Origin: Amyelois transitella
Lineage: Eukaryota; Arthropoda; Insecta; Lepidoptera; Pyralidae
Length of the DNA: 64,000 bases
Direction: 5' to 3'
Assembly (NCBI RefSeq): GCF_032362555.1
Contig: NC_083510.1
Span: forward strand, 5,793,501 to 5,857,500
Position numbers and translations under genes: made by a program. The notes beneath the pieces were generated by a model that was not told where the DNA came from, did no database searches, and worked only from the letters and a program-made list of their open reading frames with translations. Shown here one piece after another: positions 23-63,948 of this stretch (within the stretch, counting starts at the first letter, position 1; each line of letters begins with the position of its first letter).

Positions 23-3000
23 CTGTGAGAAAAAGAAAAATTGAATTATTTTTAAATAAAGTCTTAACTCAAACTAATATAAAGCCATTTGAGCAGAAAC
101 AAAACATAAATTACTAGTTACCGCTAATTCGATGAAGTCCAGGAATATAGCTAATCAGTAAAATTAGGTTTTATTCCGACATAAACAGTTTTTGGTTATT
201 TATTTCTTTCTCGTTTCGGTACAATCAAAAGAAATGATTAGAGCACATAAATAAAAATGTAGTTTCTGAGGCCTGAGATGTTATATACCTATTGGTTCGT
301 CTTAATAACAACTTTTTATAGAAAAGTTCCAAAGTAAGTGATGCTTCCATGTTACAAAATACAAAATATTCTATATATTTAACAGTAAAAGAAACACCTT
401 CTCTCTTTCTTTAAAAAACCATTAAAGTTTACAATTCGAATTAAATATATAACTTATCGCCGAGAAAGCGATACCTTCAGGCAATTGTACCACAATAGTG
501 GCCGTAGCGCCGCTTGTGAATTCCCGATGAGCCCTTATTACGAGATAGATCTGCTGTCTTATCAAAATGTCTGCTGATAATGGGGTTGTCACGTTGAGTG
601 ACACGTTGTTCCCATCTCTGATTACGCCAAAGTAAGAACTGTATTCTGAAAAAATAATAACTATGTTAAAAATGTATACTAGATATATCGCACAGAGGAG
701 ATCATTAGAATGAGTTGGTAAACTCAGCTACTACATAATATCCACATAAGCACATTACTCAAGTCAAAATGAAGGAGATCGAACCCGGAAGTCTGTCTTC
801 TTAAGTAAGCTTTTAATCATACTTGTATGATAGAAACAAACAAACCTTTAATATTGTTGAATTCTTAATTAAATTGTGACCTCTTTTGAAATTTGTGGTA
901 TATTAGTTCCTACAGCGGTCAGAAGGGGTACGCTTCGCGTAAAATCCTGACTGACCCGATTCAGGATCGTGATTACAAGCTCAAGGGTCTCTCCAGAAAA
1001 ATGAGGTTACAAACAGGAATAAAACCAGAAGGATGATGTAGGTGATGATGAAAAATACTTATTTATTTTTAGGAAAAAAAGAAATATTTTTACCTTCATT
1101 CAAAGTAAAGTCAACAAGCTCGTGATAACCTTGCTGTAGTGAAATGGATTCATCAAGTATTATCGTGTGCTCTTCTGTGTACGTTGCTGTATACAAGGGT
1201 TGATAAAAAACGGGTTCTTCAGGAAATTCAGCATCGCTATCAGCGGTTATTCTAACGGTAGCGTAAGACGTTCTCGGATCATCTCCAGTTCTATCAACAT
1301 CCTGAATTAAATATGTAGGTAATTTAAAATTCTTCGTATTGATTGAAAAAAGATTGAGGTATCTCGTGACCGAACCGGACCGGCTGAGAATTATCTAGAT
1401 ATGAAAGTCAGTATTGCAATTTAACATGATAATATACCTATCTTTTAATTTCCCTTTTTCTGATAAATACCCTATTATTGTTGTGATGTACATGACGTTA
1501 CAATAATTTATTAATAAGATATTTTTGGTCAAAGGTGTCTTTGTGCCTACAGATTTGTGAAATAAAAGCAATAACAATTTGGTAAAGCCTTATTCATTGT
1601 TAAAAAATCTAACCCAAGTAAAATATTGCAAGGAAGAGTTGTAAAATACTTGACGTTTACTCATCTCTTTTAATTTTACGTCTTCTCTGTTATATTTGAA
1701 GGCCTGGGGATACTGTGCATTTTTAACAAAAGCATCAGCGCCTGAGAAGGTAACAAAATTTTTGCTTTGTTCTCGGGAGCTTCAGATGTTTTTTCATTCA
1801 ACATAAGTAACCAAGTGTATGCCTATTAAAACTTTTTTGCGCAATTAATTGCTCTTTAATAGGTCAATATATGATTTATGTTGTGTAAAGGATTGAATTC
1901 CAATCCAAAGGTTCAAACTTATGGTGAACTTACTTTATTTGTGTTTTCTATCTCAGCACGCCCCGTATAACATCAATGTAGTTTTATGATCATATATTTT
2001 CAGTTTTTCAGAACAATTTAAATATAATTTAGTCGTTAGTTGGTGTCAGACGGTTTTCAACATAATCTAATTTTATATACATGCATGCCTTACCTAACTT
2101 ATTGCTACACCGGATAATAAGGTGATCAATCTTGTATGTTATGATGGTAAAGTATTAAATTATTATAAAGGATCGTATCACATTTACGTCTCTAATTGGA
2201 ATTTGTACATGTGTTGCCAACACATATGTACATGTGTTCGCAAACATTTTTCGTTTTAATTTGTTATTTTATTGTGGTTTTATGATATTGGAAAACAAAA
2301 AATAGTCTAATACATATAAAAGTTATAAGTATACAAACTTCTTTTTGATCAGGCATAATTTTTATTGACAAATGTATAAACTATTTGATGTTTTTTTTTA
2401 TTTTCGTCATGAATACTTACTGTAGCGCTAATAGTCAGCTCAACAGGTTCAGGTAGTGTCCTTATAAATGTACTTGTCCTTAAAATGGCTACGAATTCCT
2501 TTGCATTAGTTGAGGATGCTTCATCATATTCAATTTCGAATAGATCGCTTCCAGTCAGTGCAAAATCTATTCTATAAGTTGTGAGATCTATGTCCCTCAC
2601 TACAATGTTGTGTTGGCACCCAGTTATCTGGTGTCCGGGAAGGAGGGGTGTTGCAATTGCGATGTCATATTCGTTGGATGGCAGGAAAACTGGACTGTTA
2701 TTATTTGTATCTTGGACATTTATTTGGAAAACCTAGAATAAAATTTATGGCGATTAAATTTATAAATGCGATGTATTCTTTTGAATTAATACACAATATA
2801 GGATATTTGTTTACTTGCATTGAAAATTTGAATGTACAAGCTACAGTTTAATCAAAATCTGTAGAAAGGACCTAAGCTAGGCACATTCTTCATTATTGAT
2901 TGATTTTGATTATTCTTTTGTTTGTTTTGTTTGCATTTGATTCTGGCGGGTACCACCACTACACTTTAATAATATTGGGCATGGCGGTAGGTATCTTGAA

Positions 3001-9700: not shown

Positions 9701-12700
9701 TGAGGTAATTTTCCGATAAAACTTACCGTTTTATGTATAAACTTTACTTTGAAGAAAATCGTGAAAAACCCATTTTTTACCTTTGACCTTGGGTAATTTT
9801 TTTTCCTTAACCGGTTTAATGGGAATTTTGAAATAATTCCTTTGATTGTGTTTTAAACAATAATACTCATTTTCAGTTTGATGGGAATTACTGTAGCTTC
9901 ATTCTTATTTTTTGGTCTAAATTGACCGGACTACTTACTACAGAACGCGAACTCAACTGCAGTAGCTCAATAGAGGGATCTCCTTAATTATTATAGGCCT
10001 AGCCGTAATTGGGTCCAAAAGATATTTATAAGATGTCATTGTCAGAGTTACTCAAAATGGAGAAATAAACCATCCACGCGAAGACCGACATCCGCGCGGA
10101 CGGAGTCGCGGGGGGAAGCTATCTATACTAATATTATAAAGCTGAAGAGTTTGTTTGTTTGTATGAACGCGCTAATCTCAGGAACTACTGGTTGGAATTG
10201 AAACATTATTTTTGCGTTGAATAGACCATTTATCGAGGAAGGCCTTAGGCTATATAACATCACGCTGCAACTATAAGGAGCAAAGATATAATGGAGTATG
10301 TGAAAAAATGGGGAAAATTATTCATGCTTGAGGTCTTTAATGATGCCCAAAAAAAACTATTCCACGCGGACGAAGTCGCGGGCACAGCTAGTATGTAAAT
10401 AAGGACCCCAAAAGTAGAATTTAAGCCATCATTCAACGAAGTTTAATGGTATTTAATATTTGTTCGGCTCTGTTTGTTGCCAATAAATCTTAATACATAC
10501 TAGTACATATTAATTATTGTTAGTAAATTTATTTTATTATAATACATACTTACAGAGTTGTCAAGTTTTTAAGCGTTGCAAAAGTTTTGAAATGAACCTC
10601 AAAAATTTTGTTATCAGTCAAAAGCAATGATGTAAGATTGTTTAAACCATGGAATGCAGTGTAGTTCAAGAAACGTAATTTGTTTCTTGACAAGTCGAGT
10701 TTCTCCAATCTTGAGCAGTTTGAAAATATGAAGTCTGGGAGTTCTGAGAGTGAGTTCTCTCGTAAATCTAAATGCCGCAGCTGTTTCAAGTTTTCCAGAT
10801 TTACGTCCATCAACTGAAATAAAATGTCTTTTATGTTCGTTGTAAAGGTATCAAATAAAAATACAAAAATTTATTACTAAAACCAATAATTATGTGTGCA
10901 CACATAGTCATTTATCGCAAATCCCATAGGGAAAGTGTAAGTGTTAGTCTTTCCGAAATAAAAAGTACCAGTATTACACCGGATGCTAAAGTATAAGTTA
11001 TGTGTAGATATTGCTGAAGACTAACAGCTAAGTAACAAGTAAGAATAGAACAGAAAGTCAATTATCTACAAGTCTCCAGCAGTAATAAAGAGACAGAAAA
11101 ATCCAAAAACCTAGCTTAGATTTCATCAGCTGACAACTATACCATTTACACATAGGAGAAATCTGTTGTATCTTCGTTATGTTTTCCTCTACCTTGGAAG
11201 CATCAAAAAGCAATCACACTAAAGTATGTAGCTCAGAAAAGAGTCATTGGTTTATGGACGCAGGAGGATTTTAACCCGACCACATTGAAACTGGAACGCT
11301 AAGAGAGTTTAAGGCGGATACCAACTCGACCATCAAAATTCTTTAAAAGTATTTATGGTTATTCCTTTAAAGTACTTACATTGATTAAATTGTTGTTCGA
11401 AATATCCAGGAAAGTCAAACAAACTAGATTGATGAAGAGCCGGCCGGGCAGGTACTGCAGTTTGTTCTTATCCAACAATAACGTTTCGAGAGAAAACAAG
11501 GCTTCAAAGGAATTCTCGGATATGTTATTTATTCTATTGTCTGACAATTTCAACACCTGTAGTGTTCTCATTATAAATGTTCCGTTTTCTATGTGTTGGA
11601 TTTTATTCCTCGACAAATCTAATATGAGGAGTGACGACAGTCCCACAAAGCTATCAGAAGGAACGTACATACGTGACTTGATTATTAGATATATCTATCG
11701 TTTCTAATACAGAATTGTTGGCAAATAACATCTCGGGGAGTGTGTAAAGGTAATTGTTTGATAAATCGACATGAAAAAGCCTTTTTGTATGCCGGAATGC
11801 CTCGCTGTCTATTTCCTCAAGGTAATTTCTTTGAAGACGCCTTAAAAAAGAAAAATGAATATTAGTACATTCTTTTATTTGGTAATTTAATGGTAATGTT
11901 ATTTAACATATACAAAACTGATTGACAAAACAGTGTCTCTAGTATAAAAAGAAACCATGTTCTTCTTGATCTGAAACTAGAATATTATTTTGAGTAAATT
12001 TCACATATAGCTTTAAATGTTGCCCACCAATTAATAAAAACAAATGAAGCTCGTTTACGCTCTTCAAAGTATTGATAGATATTCTATACAAAATCGGTAC
12101 TATATTCGATACTATAATAATTCTGTGACACAAACATTCACATTTTAATCAATGCTACATATAGAAACAACCACTTATGTTCTTTCTCTTTGTTATCATA
12201 ATTCGAATATATTTTGTATTAAAATTAAATAAGACTATATAAAATAAGAAGCATTCATTAGTTTGTTATCTTCGAAACTACTCAACTGAATAAACAAAAT
12301 ATTTCAACCATGTTGTATGAAACATCAGGATGGATGTAGACTATTATATAAATCAATTTATTTATCAATTATCTCAACTAATTAAAAGAATGTATAGCTA
12401 ATTTTATTTTTGAAACAAAAGCAAAAGATTCGAAAAATTATGAATTGCTGTTGTCGTGTAAGTTAATAATTTTTATTAATGTCAATTAAAATATTACTGA
12501 TATTATTATTTTTCAGTATTTTCAGTACGCAAGGAACCGTGCAACATCATAAGAATTTACAGAATTTGAACATTTTAGAGGAACAGTGAAATGGAACCAA
12601 CGTACAATATCCTCAAATTGACGAGCGAGTCGAATATTCCCGCTGGCAGATACTCGACGCGATTGTCGTACATGTCTAGTTCGGCCAGAGACCGCATCCC

Positions 12701-48900: not shown

Positions 48901-51900
48901 TCTTATCTTAGTGCTCCCGCTTGACTTTCCAAGTAATATCTGTACCAAAATTCAGTACGTCGAATAGTTTCGGTTGACATTTATCTGTCAGTTACTTGGC
49001 AATGAAAGAATTTTATTAAATTGATTAATGACTAAGGGATAGACTTATGAACTAGGGATTCCTCTTGTAAGCGATGGGCTAGCAACCTGTAAGTATTTGA
49101 ATTGCCTCATAAAGCCATAAAGCTAAAAGTGGCCTTACAGTGTTTTTGAGACTGTTGCTGGCTCTGTCTACCCCGCAAAATATTTAGATGTGACTATATG
49201 TATGTATGTAATAACTGTTTGATTTGATTTTTATTTTATTGTTCGTATTTTAAACAATATAATGAAATAACTGTACAGTACTTAAAACCCACTTATCCCA
49301 AGTCGCCTGGGAAAAGGCTCTTGAAAAAATAACGTCCGTTTGTAGTAGCAGAAATTTCGTATATTTTCTAAGAGAATGTAGTTAAAGGCTTTTTCTTTGG
49401 ATCCGAATAATATCTACTGCATTCAGAAACTCCCAGCATTCTATTGAAAATTAAATACAAATATTTATTTTTAAATCTCGTACAACGTTCATATTTTGCG
49501 AACAAAGGAAATCTGGTTACATTGTTTCAAATTATTTACTTTGTAATCTTTAAAGCTTAAAACTGATTTTTCTTTTCTTTTCTGAATTATATATATATCT
49601 TATCATATATTTATAGCATTGTTTTTTTATTTAATAAGAAAAATATGTATATTTAATATAATTCAAACACATGTGCTAAATATGAATGCTAAAGAAGAAT
49701 CTTTGACATATAGGAGACTATAGTATTTCTATAGTATCTAATGAATCATACACAAACACATTAATTCATTATTAGAGAAATTGCAAATTGCTGTGTTTTT
49801 TCATTTCACGAGTAAATTATCTTCAGCTTGCACCGTCGTTATGAAAAGACGTCACTAAGCCATAAACTTTATGCTTGGCAAATGAAAAATGGCAATAGCA
49901 AATGAAATGCTTCCCTGAACGCGCCCTAGTTGTGATTGCTAATGGATCTTTTATTTTCGTACAGGTGATAAAAATGTTGGTGCTGGTAGTCGCGCTCTTT
50001 GCTCTGTGCTGGCTCCCGCTTCAGAGCTATATGCTATTGCAGTCGTTTTTCCCTTCGATAAACGAGTAAGTATTTTATGTTAGAAATATTATTACAAAAT
50101 TACTCTGCTTTGTCCGTAATGCCAGCATGCTTTATGTTATGCTAAAAGGGATCGTGGCAATCGAAAGAATATGGTTTTTGCCTACCCATTCGGGAAAGGG
50201 GCGTGATTTAAATATGTCTTTGTACATTATATGTATGTCGTATAATAAAGAAACAAATACTAGTCAGAAGAAGAGAGTCTTGAAGAATCTCAAGTTTATA
50301 ATATTTTTTTAACTAAAAATAAATTTTAAGCATGGGTTCACACAAACTTGATGTTCTTGATACACGTACTCGTATACAAATGCCCATGTTCGTCAAATTA
50401 TCTTATTGTGGTGTTGGAAAATTTTATTACTCGTCTACTTATCATGTAAATTACACCTAGACGCGTTACATTTACACTGATTGTTCTTGAAATTAATATT
50501 ATAATGAGAGATAGAAGGCTAGCTAGTAGTCGGCTAATTATGTATTTAAATTTGAAATTGCAGACAATGTTAAAGCTTAAGTAATTTTTTTATAAATTTG
50601 TATCCAGTTAACTACTACAAGTTCACAAAATGTTACAAAAATTGGATATTTTATTTTTCTTTGAATAAATCTTGTTCATCCATTAGATGATGTCCAACGG
50701 GAAATTGACATTAATTACGATTCTAGTCAAAATATTTTCAAACTTGGAATTTTTATAATATTTCATCATTAAAATATTGACAAGTGAAATGTGTTGTTTG
50801 CTTTTCACGAGTTTGTTATTTGTTGGGAATTTATTTCCATTTCTGAATTTGTACGATTCACTGAATTTAGTTAATGTAACGATTAAGTACATATTTACTC
50901 AGTCGTTTTCATATTTAATCGAAAATCATTTAAATTAATGAAGTTCGAATAATTATTTTGAAGCATTCACTTTTGGTACTAGTGACTCGTATTTTCATGA
51001 GTCTTAACAAAGTTCAAGAAAAGTGATATTTTAATTTCTTTCCTAGTCAAAAGTTTATAGTATCCTTTTACCTGAGAAATTTCCCGGGGAAATGGTTTTT
51101 TATTAAATAAATAAATAATAATAAATAACGTTTATTTGCTCTTCACAAAAATGTTATTGCAAGCTAACTTTAAAAATCCTTAAATACTAAAATAAAATTT
51201 ACCTGAAATACCAAGTAATCGGCAACCGAAACGGGTAAAAAATATCTACACATAGGTACTGTACTAAGAACTGAATACGCCTCTTTTGCGGGGGGTAGGC
51301 ACAGACTAAGTACATTTTACCTGTAGCCACAAAGCTTGCATAATTATTTTACTTAATCCACATAGACTAGTATGTTTAAATAAGAGTACGCTTGGCTTGA
51401 CCTTTTACCATTTTTTTTTTGTTTTTTGTAAATATCCATTCTTAACAAATAAAGGATTTTTGTAGTTAGCTTTCAATCAAATAGCATTTCCCCGGGAAAT
51501 TTCTCAGACGTTTGCCTTTAAGCCTATTTTTCTAATAATTCAAATAATATTCTATAGAGATTTCATTCTATTCTGCCAGAATTCACAGGCCAATTGAAAA
51601 CTGAGAACATAAAATTTTATTTTACGAGAAAACATTGTTTAATTTTTATTTTCTGGAATTTTATCCCATTAATTCTAAGACATCGTTCCTCTTGCAGGTA
51701 CAGATACATCAACGTGTTATTTTTCTGCTTCGACTGGTTGGCGATGAGCAATTCTTGCTATAATCCATTTATCTACGCCATTTACAATGTAAGTGAATAA
51801 GTCACAAAGTCAACTCGAAAGGTTTTAGTTTGTACCATTTACAGCACAAGTAATACTAACTTATGTTGATAGAATTCGGAATAAAATAAAAATACAGATT

Positions 51901-58025: not shown

Positions 58026-58174
58026 TTATTCGTCGAATATGCAGGTCCTCAGAATAATAGATATAATTCTATAGGGGTCTGCGTTAGCGGCCGGCCGACG
58101 ATCTTCTAAATATCCTTTCTTGTCCTCCGAGACCTGCCTCGGAATCCTGACGCAGCAACTTCGGTTGGCGACAC
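58026..58174 (-). CDS. Glutamine synthetase-like last exon
   Basis: The acceptor is TTGATTCAG|GTGTCG and the stop is TAA at 58028-58026, phase 1 entry. It encodes VANRSCCVRIPRQVSEDKKG, YLEDRRPAANADPY and a short end ILRTCIFDE. The nucleotide- and glutamate-binding arginines and the last metal Glu are kept. Confidence 0.92.
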
Positions 58175-61100
58175 CTGAATCAAATAGTTTTATTATACGT
58201 GACTTCTTGGATTGTACAGGCAACCGCATATTGCGTTACCTTGCACAAGAACTGTATAATAGAGACGAATTCACAATGTATTTGGATAGGTTGATATTCT
58301 GTTGACCGTACTATTTACGGTTTATGTCGATAGAAATATATGTAGCTATGGATCTGTTCAGCATGTTAATTATTAGATAAATATACAACCTTTCATACGT
58401 CTACAACATAAAGGTACTTTTCTACATGGCCTATTGTAAAAATTATGCTCAGTTCGACTTTTTCATGTAACGCTTTTGTGATATAACATATTAAACAATC
58501 AGGCAAACCTAGGATCTCATATCTTTCTACTAAAAAAATAATAGTAAAAATTAAACACTGTCAGGGTGTGTGCTGTAACGCGCATACGGGGAAGAACAGT
58601 TTATACAGTACCGATACATGTTCAATATTTACATTAAAATTTATTATTATTTATCAAAACCCTAATCTGATATCTGTCCAATTAATCGTAATTATAATAT
58701 GATTGGAAATAATCAGCTTAACCAGTAATCAGAATCGTCGTGAATTGATGATCATGCTTTCATGATTGATGATCTTCTAAATATCTCTCCTTAGGTCCTT
58801 TCATAATTTATCACCGCATAGTTATAGTAAAAATAATATCCACAAAAGTCTACATAAAACAAACACAATAAACTAAGAACAACATCAAATATTTTGATGA
58901 CGCTGAAAAACGAACCCTGGTTTCTCATTGTGGCGGTCTAGTGTACACCTATTTAATTAACTCCTGTGGCATGCAGGTGTTTCGATATTTCTTAACATGC
59001 TTTTTTGCCAGAAATACTTACTTTTTTTTTAATAAATTTTGCTTATGAATCTGAAATAAATAACGTGTTCATTCAAGAAACATCTGGACTCAGTTTGCAG
59101 AGTATTTTAGGTCACCATGTTCTATTCTATTCCGGAGAAGTTTCGAAGCAGGAGCAAGGTCATTAAAAATGTATTTTATATAACATTTTGAGCTTATATT
59201 TATTAGCATATTATTCAGTGCCCAGGATAGTATATATCCTTATTGTACTGTCATGAATATTGCAATGATTCAAAGAAGTTTATTTTACCGTGATTATACC
59301 TACATCAACATACAATATTAATATTGTATATTTTGATGTAACATGTAAATCTTTAGAAAATTTGTATAATTATTGAATGAAGCATACAGTTATGGGGAAC
59401 ATATTACACTAGTTCGGCCGCATAATCTTTCCTTTGTAAATACGACTACGTTATTTTGTATTGAAACTAACGCAATACAAAAGTTAACGAACTAGTATTT
59501 TTTTGTTGAATCACAAATAGAAATAAGTCACAAAAAATTTACCAACGCGAACATAATAAATTTTACACTGAAAACTGCATTTTTATCAAGCTTTCTTCAT
59601 AGACCGTGTGTTGCAGTTCGTTCATCTGTATAACATAATAGAAAGGTTACTGACATACCTACTGTATTATTAGTAGTCGTAATGACCTCGGCATCCATCA
59701 GGGCATGATTTTCATGCGGTGGCGAAGGCCCGCGGGTAAAAGCTTATCTGATGCATGAGGCGTGTCATAGACATTCAATTAACTGATAACTATTTACAAA
59801 CGCGCCAAACTAACGTTTGTCCGCGACTTCGTACGCGCGACGGTTTGTTTTTCCTGGTCCCATGGTTTTTCCATTTTGTTTCCCATGGTTCCAATTAGTG
59901 TTAATACTTTTTGTCTACTTTAAACTTTTAAAGGAATGTATGTTCAAAATTTAAAAAAGGGCATCCAAGAGGAAGATATGGAGTGACTCATTCTAAATTG
60001 CTGAAAACCACACGGCGCACCTTTAAATAAAATTAATTTTAGAATAACCTATGTCAACTACACGTCAAAGGTAGCGTAGAAGAAGAAAACAAGTACACTC
60101 GTGTGTATTACCTGCAGTGAAATCTCTAATGTGAGGCATTCCATTCTTGCCGGTGAGTCGTCTGGCGTTGTCTGCCCCGTTGTTCGCGTCGTACTCGTTG
60201 ATGTGAGCGCCGTGTCGACGAGCCAATTTGTCTATAGCTCGTTCAATTACCCTGTAAATTTGTATCAGACATATTTTTATTTTGTATAGAATATTTATAA
60301 ATAGCTCCACATTTGCTAACGATAAGTTTGGATCGATCATTTTGAAAAATTTCAAAGCGCTGAAGGTGAGGTAGATGGATCCGAGTTTGAGGCTTTGTGT
60401 TCAACCACAATGACATCATTGTGAAAGGAGTTTTACAACATACTTAGTAGGTAACCAATATTTAATTAAATTATTGGGGATAGTAAAAATCTAGTAAGTA
60501 CTAGTAAACATAACGTAACCAAGAAGGTATGCGGTATACATAAAGTTCTATAGATACATATATTTATTTTTTGGTAACCCTTGTTCATATGTCTGTGACA
60601 CCGGAGGTCCCGCGTTCGAAATCCGGCCAGGGTATGATGAGAAACTAACTTTGTCTGATTGGTCTGGTTCTTGGATATTTTTCTATTTAGGTAAGTATTT
60701 TTATAAAATATAGTATCTTTAAGTAAATATTTCGTAAAACAAACTTTTAGCCTCGAGGTAAGTTCGCAATCTGGGTAATTTGTCCGGTATATATTTATTT
60801 ATTATCTATTTTATGGCTTGAAAAATCAAATTGTATTTGTACATAGTATGTAGATACGTCTAAAGAATATAAGTAAAAGCTATAATCGCTCTAAAAAGCA
60901 ATACAACGTATTGTTGTCGCCACGAAAATGATAAATTATTCTCCTTAGACAAGGGATTCTTTTTGACCAATGGATTATACGTGGTATAAATTTGAAAAAC
61001 CCTATTTTCATTATATTTTGTAAGTGCTTAAAATTCCCCTAGAGTAGGATGCGTACATACCTAGGAATTTCCCAAAGGGATTCTTTCTATAATTTACAAC

Positions 61101-63948
61101 ACTTAAATCTAAACTAATGTTAACATAGTAAAACTCAAGAAACTCATAAAAGAATTTTAGCAAGAAATGAATAAATTCAAAATCCACCTTGCCGATATAA
61201 AATAAAACGCAATTATTTTAGGAGTAAAATGAGTTAATTTCTTATGGAATCTGTTGACAAAAGACACATAATCCGATAATCAGTTTTTATTTACAAAAAT
61301 TCAGGTAGGTACTTGAAAGATGTTATTAAATTTATTATAGAGATTTTGAAACTTATATATATATGCACTTATAAAATTTTCAATTATTATATTATTCTCA
61401 AGTAGCAGCGTTGCAACAAGAATACAACAACATTTTCAGCGAAGCTAATATTAAATTCTTAGTTTCTAAAGTACCACATTACTTAAGATGAGCTTTTATT
61501 AAAATATTCATTAAACCATTTTTCCTTTTTCTAAACGGTTTTGGCCTTTAGCCAACATTTCAAATAAAACAATAATTTCAGATATTATTACGCCTGTAAG
61601 AGCCTACTTGGCAGTTTTCACAGGTTTTGTACATTAATTTAAGCACCTTCTGTGCCAAGTCAGCCTTTCCATTTTTATTAATAAATAATATATTTGTATA
61701 TTTATTTATTAGAATATTGATAGGATAATTCAACACGGGACTAGGAGTACAAAAATTGGTGGTACCTTTTTGTATCGACTTATTCAAATGCAAATGAAGC
61801 CATAAAGCCCGCATTGTTTTTTCAATAACTTATGTACGACACGTCTATGATTTTCTTATATGTACATTAAATTTTTTAGAGCACCTAGTCATGCCCAAAA
61901 TTAGAGCTATACAATTGCAACGTTTGAATGTTTTAATGAAACATTACTTACAAAATACCGTCCTCTTCCCTCATGTCCTTAGAAGAAAAGTAGCAGAAAG
62001 TGGCATTCCCTGGCCAATCGGGTACCGGCTGGGGTTCGAAGGTAGCTACCGTGCCGTACTCTTCCGCCAGGCGCGCCAAGATATAACGAGCCATCCACAG
62101 GTCGTCCGCTGCCCGAATACCTGGGTTTGGACCGACCTAAAATTTTTATGTCGACATCAATGTGTTTGGAAAATTTTGGTAAATAATTTAGATCACTAAG
62201 ATGTATTTAATGATAATGTCATATACTTCCTATAGTACAGTCAAAGACTCGCTGCCCGCGGGGCCATAAAACTTCGGTGCGCTAGGGCGAGGGACATGCG
62301 ATGAGTCACTTATCGATAACAGTATATCGATACCTACGTGCGCTTGAGCACGGTAATTAACTTTGGCTTATTTTACTTTTTCACAACATAAATATCTACA
62401 CAATGTTTGCGTCGCGCGTGGGGCATAACTATGCCTGCCGTAAGGCCTGTAAGTGCGATAGAGAACGCGGCAGGCGGCGTCTAACTTCCACGTTTTATGG
62501 CCCCGCGAGGCAGTGAGTCTTTGACTCTACTACAGTGGATACTTTAGCGAAGAAACAGTAGGTAGTAGATTTAAAAAAGTAGTGTTTTATATCTAAACAG
62601 GTTACATTCTATGATTATATTCACTCATAATTTGTTGTCAATACTTCTCTTTCGATCATGTTTACATAACTAAGTACCTAAATCTTTAATTATGTTGTAG
62701 GACTTCTTCTAGGACAAAAGCGTTTTTATTAAAAAAATAAAAGTAAAGTAATTCATGACGAGACATTGGAAAAACGAGGCAAAGTCGAAGCTTCCCAGGT
62801 AATTGAAAAAAAGGACAAAGCATTAGCTAAGTTATATATTTACTAAACAGGGCTATTTTAAGCGGGACACATCATTCTTTTTTGTAAGACACGTAACAAA
62901 TAAATTAGGAAAACAAAAGAAAATCTTAAAGCACGCTTAATTCCAGAATATTTTTAAGAATTCTACAAATGTAAATATAACACAACGATATTATCAACAA
63001 TTAAAACTTAAAGGTAAAACTTCCTAAAAGAATGTTAGTATCAGTTTGCTAGAAGCTTGCGTTAAAATTCATGAAACAATTTTCGTTTGAGTGTTTTAAA
63101 GCTCGAATTTAACAAAAAGTAATTGTTTCATATTATTTTGTGCCCTTTTACGTTGTTTTATAAACGGAACTGCTACCGGGTTGCGCAATTTGGAGCGTGC
63201 AAAACTTTGTGGAAAATGCTTGACATTAAAGAATGGAACGAGTTTCTAGTTGCAGGAAACAATTCATTTTCTATATGCGAATAGATTTATCTGAATTTTA
63301 CACTTTTCAAACAAACAAACAAACTTTTCACTAGAATTCTTACTTAGCTTCATACAATTTGACGTCGATCATAAAAGAGCGTATTAATTAACTTTACATG
63401 AAGCATGCAGGGCAGACCCTTTAAATCCGGCTCTGAACGATCGATACCTAAAAGTGAAACTACCTCTTTTAATAATTTTGGTTACTTACTAAATATGACT
63501 GTTCTATTAGCTGTGAGTTGTTATTGTTATTATAGTTGTTATAGTTGAAATGCCTACTTTCATGCTAACATTATAATATATACGCGATAGAAAGACAGTC
63601 TATCATTTGTCCGTCTGTAACATTTTCACTGCTAAACTCCGGTCTTGTCAAGTAGGTAATATGTGAAGCTCTTTTTCTTGAAAACCACACGGCATGGGGG
63701 AATAACAGAAACTATATACAGATTTACACGGGCGTAATTACGCCGCTAGTCGACTATATCACAAGGACGTATACAATATTGAATATTCAAATCGAACAGT
63801 TGCTGGAATGAATTAACAAAACCCAATTATATTTCCGCGAACTACTAATACATGGTCAAATATTATAGTATGTACCTGAAAATTCCATTGTGATGGCGTT
63901 GTTCCTGGATTTATCCCATTCAAACCTATTCCGGCGTAAAGGCAACAT
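58026..63948 (-). CDS. Glutamine synthetase-like protein, C-terminal half, probably catalytically inactive (runs off right edge)
   Basis: Four minus-strand exons (63876-63948, 61952-62136, 60112-60251, 58026-58174) join in frame and end with TAA, giving about 182 residues of the catalytic domain. Clear family signatures are QVGPNPGIRAADDLWMARYI, FSSKDMREEDGIL, DNARRLTG, ANRSCCVRIPR and DKKGYLEDRRPAANADPY. Active enzymes make glutamine from glutamate, ammonia and ATP. By alignment to human GLUL (numbering from memory), metal ligands E196, E203 and H253 are replaced by N, P and F, the ammonia-site flap E305 by G, and the GAGCHTN loop by GNATFCY. R299, R319, R324, E338 and R340 are retained. The C-terminus stops about ten residues early (RTCIFDE). 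Splicing and frame are intact, so I infer an expressed pseudoenzyme rather than a decayed gene. The N-terminal beta-grasp half is outside the window. Confidence 0.88.
58175..60111 (-). other. Glutamine synthetase-like intron (1.9 kb)
   Basis: AT-rich. The TE-like phrase CCGCGACTTCGTACGCGCG lies at about 59821-59839, and a 3' fragment of family A at 59955-60020 (ATATGGAGTGACTCATTC, AAACCACACGGCGCAC). No exon is recognised. Confidence 0.45.
60112..60251 (-). CDS. Glutamine synthetase-like exon (flap region)
   Basis: The acceptor is AATTTACAG|GGTAAT and the donor is ACTGCAG|GTAATA, phase 2 to phase 1. It encodes VIERAIDKLARRHGAHINEY, then DNARRLTGKNGMPHIRDFTA. The position normally holding the flap Glu (HETSN in human) reads NGMPH. 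Confidence 0.9.
60592..60810 (+). mobile_element. tRNA-derived SINE, 5'-truncated copy
   Basis: Same family as 36626-36880. It begins within the tRNA head (CTGTGACACCGGAGGTCCCG), has a mutated B box (CGTTCGAAATCC), then the shared body (TGATTGGTCTGGTTCTTGGA) and a TATT-rich tail. It is more diverged than the other copy. It lies in the glutamine synthetase-like gene, antisense to it. Confidence 0.8.
60811..61951 (-). other. Glutamine synthetase-like intron, remainder
   Basis: AT-rich sequence with nothing recognised. Confidence 0.4.
61952..62136 (-). CDS. Glutamine synthetase-like exon (central catalytic part)
   Basis: The acceptor is AATTTTAG|GTCGGT and the donor is GGTATTTT|GTAAGT, phase 0 to phase 2. 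It encodes VGPNPGIRAADDLWMARYIL, ARLAEEYGTVATFEPQPVPD and the altered loop WPGNATFCYFSSKDMREEDG. Confidence 0.9.
62239..62526. mobile_element. GC-rich MITE with about 34-bp terminal inverted repeats
   Basis: AGTCAAAGACTCGCTGCC at 62239 (arm to 62272) is matched by its near-perfect reverse complement at 62492-62526. The two arms share CGCGGGGCCATAAAAC and differ by one substitution and one indel. The 288-base body is GC-richer than its surroundings and has no ORF. The flanks TAC/CTAC hint at a 3-base duplication but are not decisive. It lies in the intron just upstream of the 61952-62136 exon. Confidence 0.75.
62527..63875 (-). other. Glutamine synthetase-like intron, remainder
   Basis: AT-rich. 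A fragment resembling the family A 3' end lies at about 63675-63700 (GAAAACCACACGGC). Nothing else is recognised. Confidence 0.4.
63876..63948 (-). CDS. Glutamine synthetase-like exon (leftward from window edge)
   Basis: The acceptor is TTTCCAACAG|ATGTTG and the donor is AATTTTCAG|GTACAT, 73 bases, phase 2 to phase 0. It encodes CCLYAGIGLNGINPGTTPSQ, then WNFQ. In active enzymes this is QWEFQ, so the first metal-binding Glu is Asn here. Confidence 0.82.

Follow-up and report, generated by a model that had tools for sequence, protein, structure and literature searches.

The window analysed here, a 64,000-nucleotide stretch of the Amyelois transitella genome (C6:5793501-5857500, in a genome of 327 Mb in 33 contigs), contains the last four exons of a glutamine synthetase (GS)-like gene whose product we consider, with considerable confidence, to be a lepidopteran class II GS pseudoenzyme (hereafter pseudo-GS) as judged from its sequence. 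Most of the catalytic residues have been lost yet the gene is intact and well conserved, which argues that the protein very probably performs a different, non-enzymatic job; the gene is most likely old and under purifying selection, and not decaying. This confidence belongs to the pseudoenzyme core and to neither of the mechanisms considered below. The complete gene lies on the minus strand and comprises seven exons encoding 362 amino acids (aa), exons 1-3 being found just beyond the window edge once the upstream DNA had been retrieved. Its parts are as follows, with residue numbers throughout being those of human GS (the window protein's own numbering runs one lower in its later part, where 252 is H253).

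C6:5861283-5861118, 5860080-5859919 and 5858056-5857843, minus strand: exons 1-3, from tblastn on the upstream DNA
Window 63876..63948, minus strand: exon 4, 73 nt, encoding (R)CCLYAGIGLNGINPGTTPSQWNFQ, with E196G and E203N and AG/GT borders
Window 62137..63875, minus strand: intron between exons 4 and 5, with no counterpart in the genome's two active cytosolic GS genes
Window 61952..62136, minus strand: exon 5, 185 nt, encoding VGPNPGIRAADDLWMARYIL...DWPGNATFCYFS...GI, with N248P, H253F and N255Y
Window 60112..60251, minus strand: exon 6, 140 nt, encoding VIERAIDKLARRHG...DNARRLTGKNGMPHIRDFTA, with E305G in the flap and R299 retained
Window 58026..58174, minus strand: exon 7, 149 nt including the stop codon, encoding GVANRSCCVRIPRQVSEDKKGYLEDRRP...FDE*, with R319, R324, E338, R340 and R341 retained

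The joined exons form a single 1089-nt frame from ATG to TAA with GT...AG borders at all six introns, and the gene spans ~9.8 kb here. A sequence-only reading of the window had described four in-frame exons with clean splice sites, which is borne out (63948-63876, 62136-61952, 60251-60112 and 58174-58026), and exons 1-3 are likewise free of frame-breaking changes. The GS fold signature motifs that it quoted are all present in the window exons. Against class II GS structures, the 180-aa join of these four exons reaches E values as low as 6.5e-65, so the match is not due to chance, and the profile of the GS catalytic domain (PF00120) is matched at 54.3 bits against a cut-off of 24. The GS beta-grasp profile (PF03951) scores 30.4 bits (E 2.9e-07), below its cut-off of 33.4, and is present in the precomputed annotation of some orthologs (e.g. 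P0122-P0124). The predicted structure of an ortholog is nearer to class II than to class I GS folds. On sequence and modelled structure, the GS-like protein is thus classed as a member of the class II GS family.

Six catalytic residues are lost in the window protein. At the metal and glutamate ligands of active GS it carries N, G, N, P and F instead (E134N, E196G, E203N, N248P and H253F), and the flap Glu is G (E305G), a position that is G, N or S across the 22 rows covering it; S66 and N255 have further changed to N and Y, respectively. Four catalytic substitutions had been claimed from the window alone, and those to N in QWNFQ (E203), F in TFCYF (H253) and G in KNGMP (E305) hold, but not the P in GPNPG, where the aligned position is E, V, L, K or T in the tabulated active-type rows and, being variable there, is not a conserved catalytic ligand. 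Absent from that account were E196G (GINPG), N248P (DWPGN) and E134N (GFNQEF), the last encoded beyond the window, where the first metal-ligand pair now proves to have N at E134 and to retain E136. Also retained are D63, W130 (M in ortholog P0127), R299, R319, R324, E338, R340 and R341. We take E136, E196, E203 and N248 to be catalytic residues, and Asp63 presumably serves the active site of the adjoining subunit. Among the others, E134, H253 and E338 are named as Mn ligands and R299, R319, R324, R340 and R341 as substrate-site residues (PMC9713474). In plant GS, Asp56 and Glu297 act with ammonium, His249 is essential and Arg316 acts with ATP (PMC3430217); by motif and numbering, we read Asp56, Glu297, His249 and Arg316 as the probable equivalents of human D63, E305, H253 and R324.

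The same losses recur across Lepidoptera. Among the matches listed (the best 120 of 574, 1686 and 2173 in three protein searches, beyond which further members or distant pseudo-GS may exist), at least 22 protein clusters have this loss pattern (P0121-P0136, P0138, P0001, P0002, P0047, P0070 and P0209). Twenty of the 22 carry source names, all lepidopteran: Danaus, Diatraea, Melitaea, Trichoplusia, Parnassius, Cydia, Papilio, Aricia, Leptidea, Phthorimaea, Tuta, Spodoptera, Operophtera, Hyposmocoma, Pieris and the bagworm Eumeta, genera that we take to belong to this order. Clusters P0121-P0136 (323-391 aa) share 77-90% identity with the window protein (P0121 over 70% of the query), Eumeta is 54% identical, and the next-listed active GS among these matches reaches at most 58%. 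Counting only rows that truly hold the motif, window included, E134 is lost in 17/17 (15 N, 1 S, 1 T), E196 in 16/16 (all G), E203 in 16/16 (13 N, 3 C), N248 in 21/21 (all P), H253 in 21/21 (20 F, 1 L) and E305 in 22/22 (18 G, 3 N, 1 S), while E136 is retained in 17/17, E338 in 22/22 and D63 in all 18 rows that have a residue in that column (P0121 excluded). The E134/E136 counts omit P0001, P0135 and P0136 (the aligned N in P0001 derives from another exon), and those for E196/E203 omit P0001, P0134 and P0138, so that Eumeta (P0138) is uninformative at both of the latter sites. The lepidopteran orthologs keep both the frame and the losses. In P0121, from Danaus chrysippus, a C-terminal exon set precedes the normal order, which points to either a tandem copy or an error in joining the model.

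Of 265 proteins retrieved, many being partial, 231 are canonical at every site that they cover and 34 depart at one or more, 22 of these being the pseudo-GS group. Of the other 12, nine depart at a single site, two at two sites and one, a partial protein from an ant (P0067), at three; 8 of these 12 are shorter than 320 aa. One GS from the centipede Strigamia maritima (P0177) has the flap Glu alone changed (E305G) and is canonical at the rest of the 13 sites. Viral contigs scanned with the group alignment gave no relative, and a search of an open-access library, limited by its terms and collection and so not proof, gave no description of a lepidopteran pseudo-GS.

A tree of pseudo-GS with active enzymes was built from 54 rows, leaving out P0121 and P0134-P0136 (models that are scrambled or skip exons), P0137 and the fragments P0001, P0002, P0047, P0070 and P0209. 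The 14 pseudo rows (window, P0122-P0133 and P0138) separate as a single clade with support of 100/100, a long stem (0.94) and short branches thereafter. Eumeta (branch 0.39) splits first within the clade, a placement flagged as unsure by the program because its row is long. Compared with insect cytosolic GS2 (class II; fly structure 7cpr), pseudo-GS has six catalytic positions replaced, falls in a separate clade and is encoded by a gene with one extra intron.

The same genome carries intact active-type GS genes. Two of the cytosolic type lie on one strand ~30 kb apart (G000:C31:7537478-7541900 and 7572322-7577287; loci L010, L013 and L014) with matching exon lengths of 198, 162, 214, 258, 140 and 149 nt (the first measured from its splice site, earlier exons not being sought), and the tree tip of copy A is ~10x that of copy B (0.093 vs 0.009). 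The pseudo-GS gene has exons of 166 (from the ATG), 162, 214, 73+185, 140 and 149 nt in matching phases, its split 73+185 nt corresponding to the single 258-nt exon. Because lengths and phases match, it most likely arose from cytosolic GS through duplication of the DNA, and either this gene acquired one intron or the active genes lost it. Five of nine printed ortholog models break at the VGP border of this intron (P0001, P0002, P0134, P0138 and P0209); the remaining four read across it and are uninformative on the intron, for which we infer a great age. Elsewhere, a single-exon GS frame of 415 codons that is extended N-terminally and has the main catalytic motifs (L016:4054-5298; G000:C4 from about 2431054) is probably mitochondrial GS1 and may be a retrocopy; GS genes are listed among lepidopteran retrocopies (PMC11675541).

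Column-by-column conservation was assessed in 39 active rows and in 13 pseudo rows, Eumeta (P0138) being excluded. Pairs of these pseudo rows are on average 82% identical, and pairs among 13 active lepidopteran rows 87%. Of the 146 columns conserved at ≥95% in the active rows, 108 are kept in pseudo-GS, and the losses concentrate at the metal, glutamate and flap ligands (6/8 vs 32/138 elsewhere; Fisher p 0.004, with the eight ligand positions selected by us from known roles). Conserved columns are kept at the Arg/E338 positions (6/6), in the N-domain (23/28) and in the inter-ring loop and its flank (149-160; 7/8), the role of the loop being taken from PMC9713474. At twelve columns the pseudo group has become fixed for a new residue.

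Some observations weigh against the pseudoenzyme reading. The tree does not settle where the pseudo clade joins active GS. In ten same-species pairs from five genomes, pseudo copies are 83.7-89.0% identical and active copies 83.3-94.3%, the pseudo copies diverging more in 5/10 pairs, about twofold in four, which indicates that constraint on pseudo-GS is weaker than on the enzyme; they are more alike than the active copies in the other five, four of which involve a divergent active Leptidea copy. Finally, as E136 and E338 remain, weak metal binding may still be possible.

Loss of many otherwise invariant residues, and the omission of exon 4 or other exons from several public gene models, could point to a decaying pseudogene, a reading that we regard as very improbable. 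Frame and splice sites are intact in 7/7 exons, nine models of 362-374 aa come from named lepidopteran records (P0122-P0127, P0130, P0132 and P0133), and two more, of 362 and 376 aa, lie on short contigs (P0128 and P0129). The sampled lepidopteran families have been separate for many tens of millions of years, and simulated drift to 81% identity, used as a stand-in for dN/dS and a rough guide only, left stop-free frames in 2/100 copies, against the 82% identity of the pseudo rows. Neither broken frame or splice sites nor lost constraint is seen in the frame, ortholog, column or drift evidence, and the earlier proposal of a selected pseudoenzyme rather than ordinary decay is supported by the intact upstream exons and the ortholog-wide losses and frame. 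Nor does an alternative exon restore the catalytic residues, a scenario with next to no likelihood: tblastn with the active GS of this genome over the window and 20 kb upstream returned the seven known exons, with the next match at E 0.47, and the orthologs carry the same losses. A new enzyme with the same fold, catalysing another ATP-dependent or metal-free reaction, is improbable. The twelve fixed new residues, several in or beside active-site motifs (P, F and Y at 247, 252 and 254), suggest a remodelled pocket and the ATP-side arginines are retained, but E136 and E338 are the sole remaining metal ligands and the positions of E203 (N/C) and E305 (G/N/S) are variable, which would be odd for a new catalytic site.

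Pseudo-GS is probably a non-catalytic oligomer subunit. A DNA-level duplication of a cytosolic GS gene would have given rise to a copy that changed fast and lost most metal and glutamate site ligands and the flap Glu, and the new form would have been fixed before the sampled Lepidoptera, including the bagworm, diverged; the protein is predicted to keep the GS-subunit fold and should not make glutamine. Class II active sites sit between adjoining subunits (PMC3430217, PMC3848809). We tentatively suggest, as a possibility somewhat short of even, that pseudo-GS joins mixed decamers with active GS and tunes activity, assembly or stability, a seat made possible by a sound fold, interface and Asp63 combined with a dead catalytic half; the pseudo subunit would lend Asp63 to its neighbour. 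In Lotus japonicus, the defective plastid GS subunit of Ljgln2-1 is present at normal level while activity is lost in heterozygotes, for which the authors propose mixed oligomers (PMC3430217). As a dominant-negative GS it provides a precedent, alike in its defective subunit and proposed mixed oligomers, although Ljgln2-1 is a mutant plant allele and pseudo-GS a fixed paralog. The more specific proposal, that an obligately inactive lepidopteran subunit gives Asp63, senses nucleotide or phosphate via its arginines and sets glutamine production in mixed decamers, is unlikely as it stands; if true, the output so set might serve silk, eggs, sperm or ammonia handling, and an animal GS would be regulated by a built-in pseudosubunit.

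Mixed decamers fit only slightly better than a homomeric scaffold. A non-enzymatic protein that assembles with itself and serves as a scaffold or binds a ligand, independent of active GS and comparable to lengsin or bestrophin-2-binding GS, is a possibility about which we are rather more doubtful than hopeful. The retained phosphate-site arginines could be used in binding, the inter-ring region is kept at seven of eight active-invariant columns, and the PDB contains a bestrophin-2/GS complex (8ecy, by title), whereas the retained Asp63, which we assume to serve a neighbour's site, would have no obvious use in an all-dead oligomer, unless it is structural. The likeness to vertebrate lengsin drawn in the sequence-only reading stands as an analogy, both being evolutionarily kept, catalytically dead GS relatives, and fails as kinship: the lens protein is described as a dodecameric GSI remnant (PMC2667176) and pseudo-GS a class II paralog of separate origin. 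Pseudo-GS was accordingly rejected as a lengsin on its best sequence and fold matches, all class II in a comparison that did not contain lengsin itself. It gives lengsin a class II counterpart, retained across a large order of insects, and provides a testable case of a pseudoenzyme that would either regulate its parent or have taken another job. Many public records label pseudo-GS proteins glutamine synthetase, so in pathway maps and expression studies of Lepidoptera a dead protein may be taken for the enzyme.

Hints of transcription come from P0128, a cluster of 11 sequences with a longest contig of 1366 bases, and P0129, whose longest contig has 1610 bases, both with full-length frames. As these contigs are too short for the introns of a ~9.8-kb gene, we read them as assembled transcripts, a retrocopy also being possible; the 'lgn' label presumably denotes a read-archive assembly. 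The GS1 and GS2 described from the Chilo suppressalis central nervous system keep the conserved residues, so that the account given there neither supports nor excludes pseudo-GS expression (PMC4501067), and the passages naming a GS in Vanessa cardui and Bombyx do not tell which copy is meant (PMC12968515, PMC7013401).

The window also holds other coding frames.

Window 1059-2732, minus strand: frames cadherin-like by eye (DTNNNSPVF), two of which were scanned with no Pfam match at 0.01
Window 49899-50066 and 51558-51797, plus strand: frames like a rhodopsin-family receptor (7tm_1, weak, below cut-off)
Window 10550-11691, minus strand: leucine-rich-repeat frames (LRR_8 profile match)
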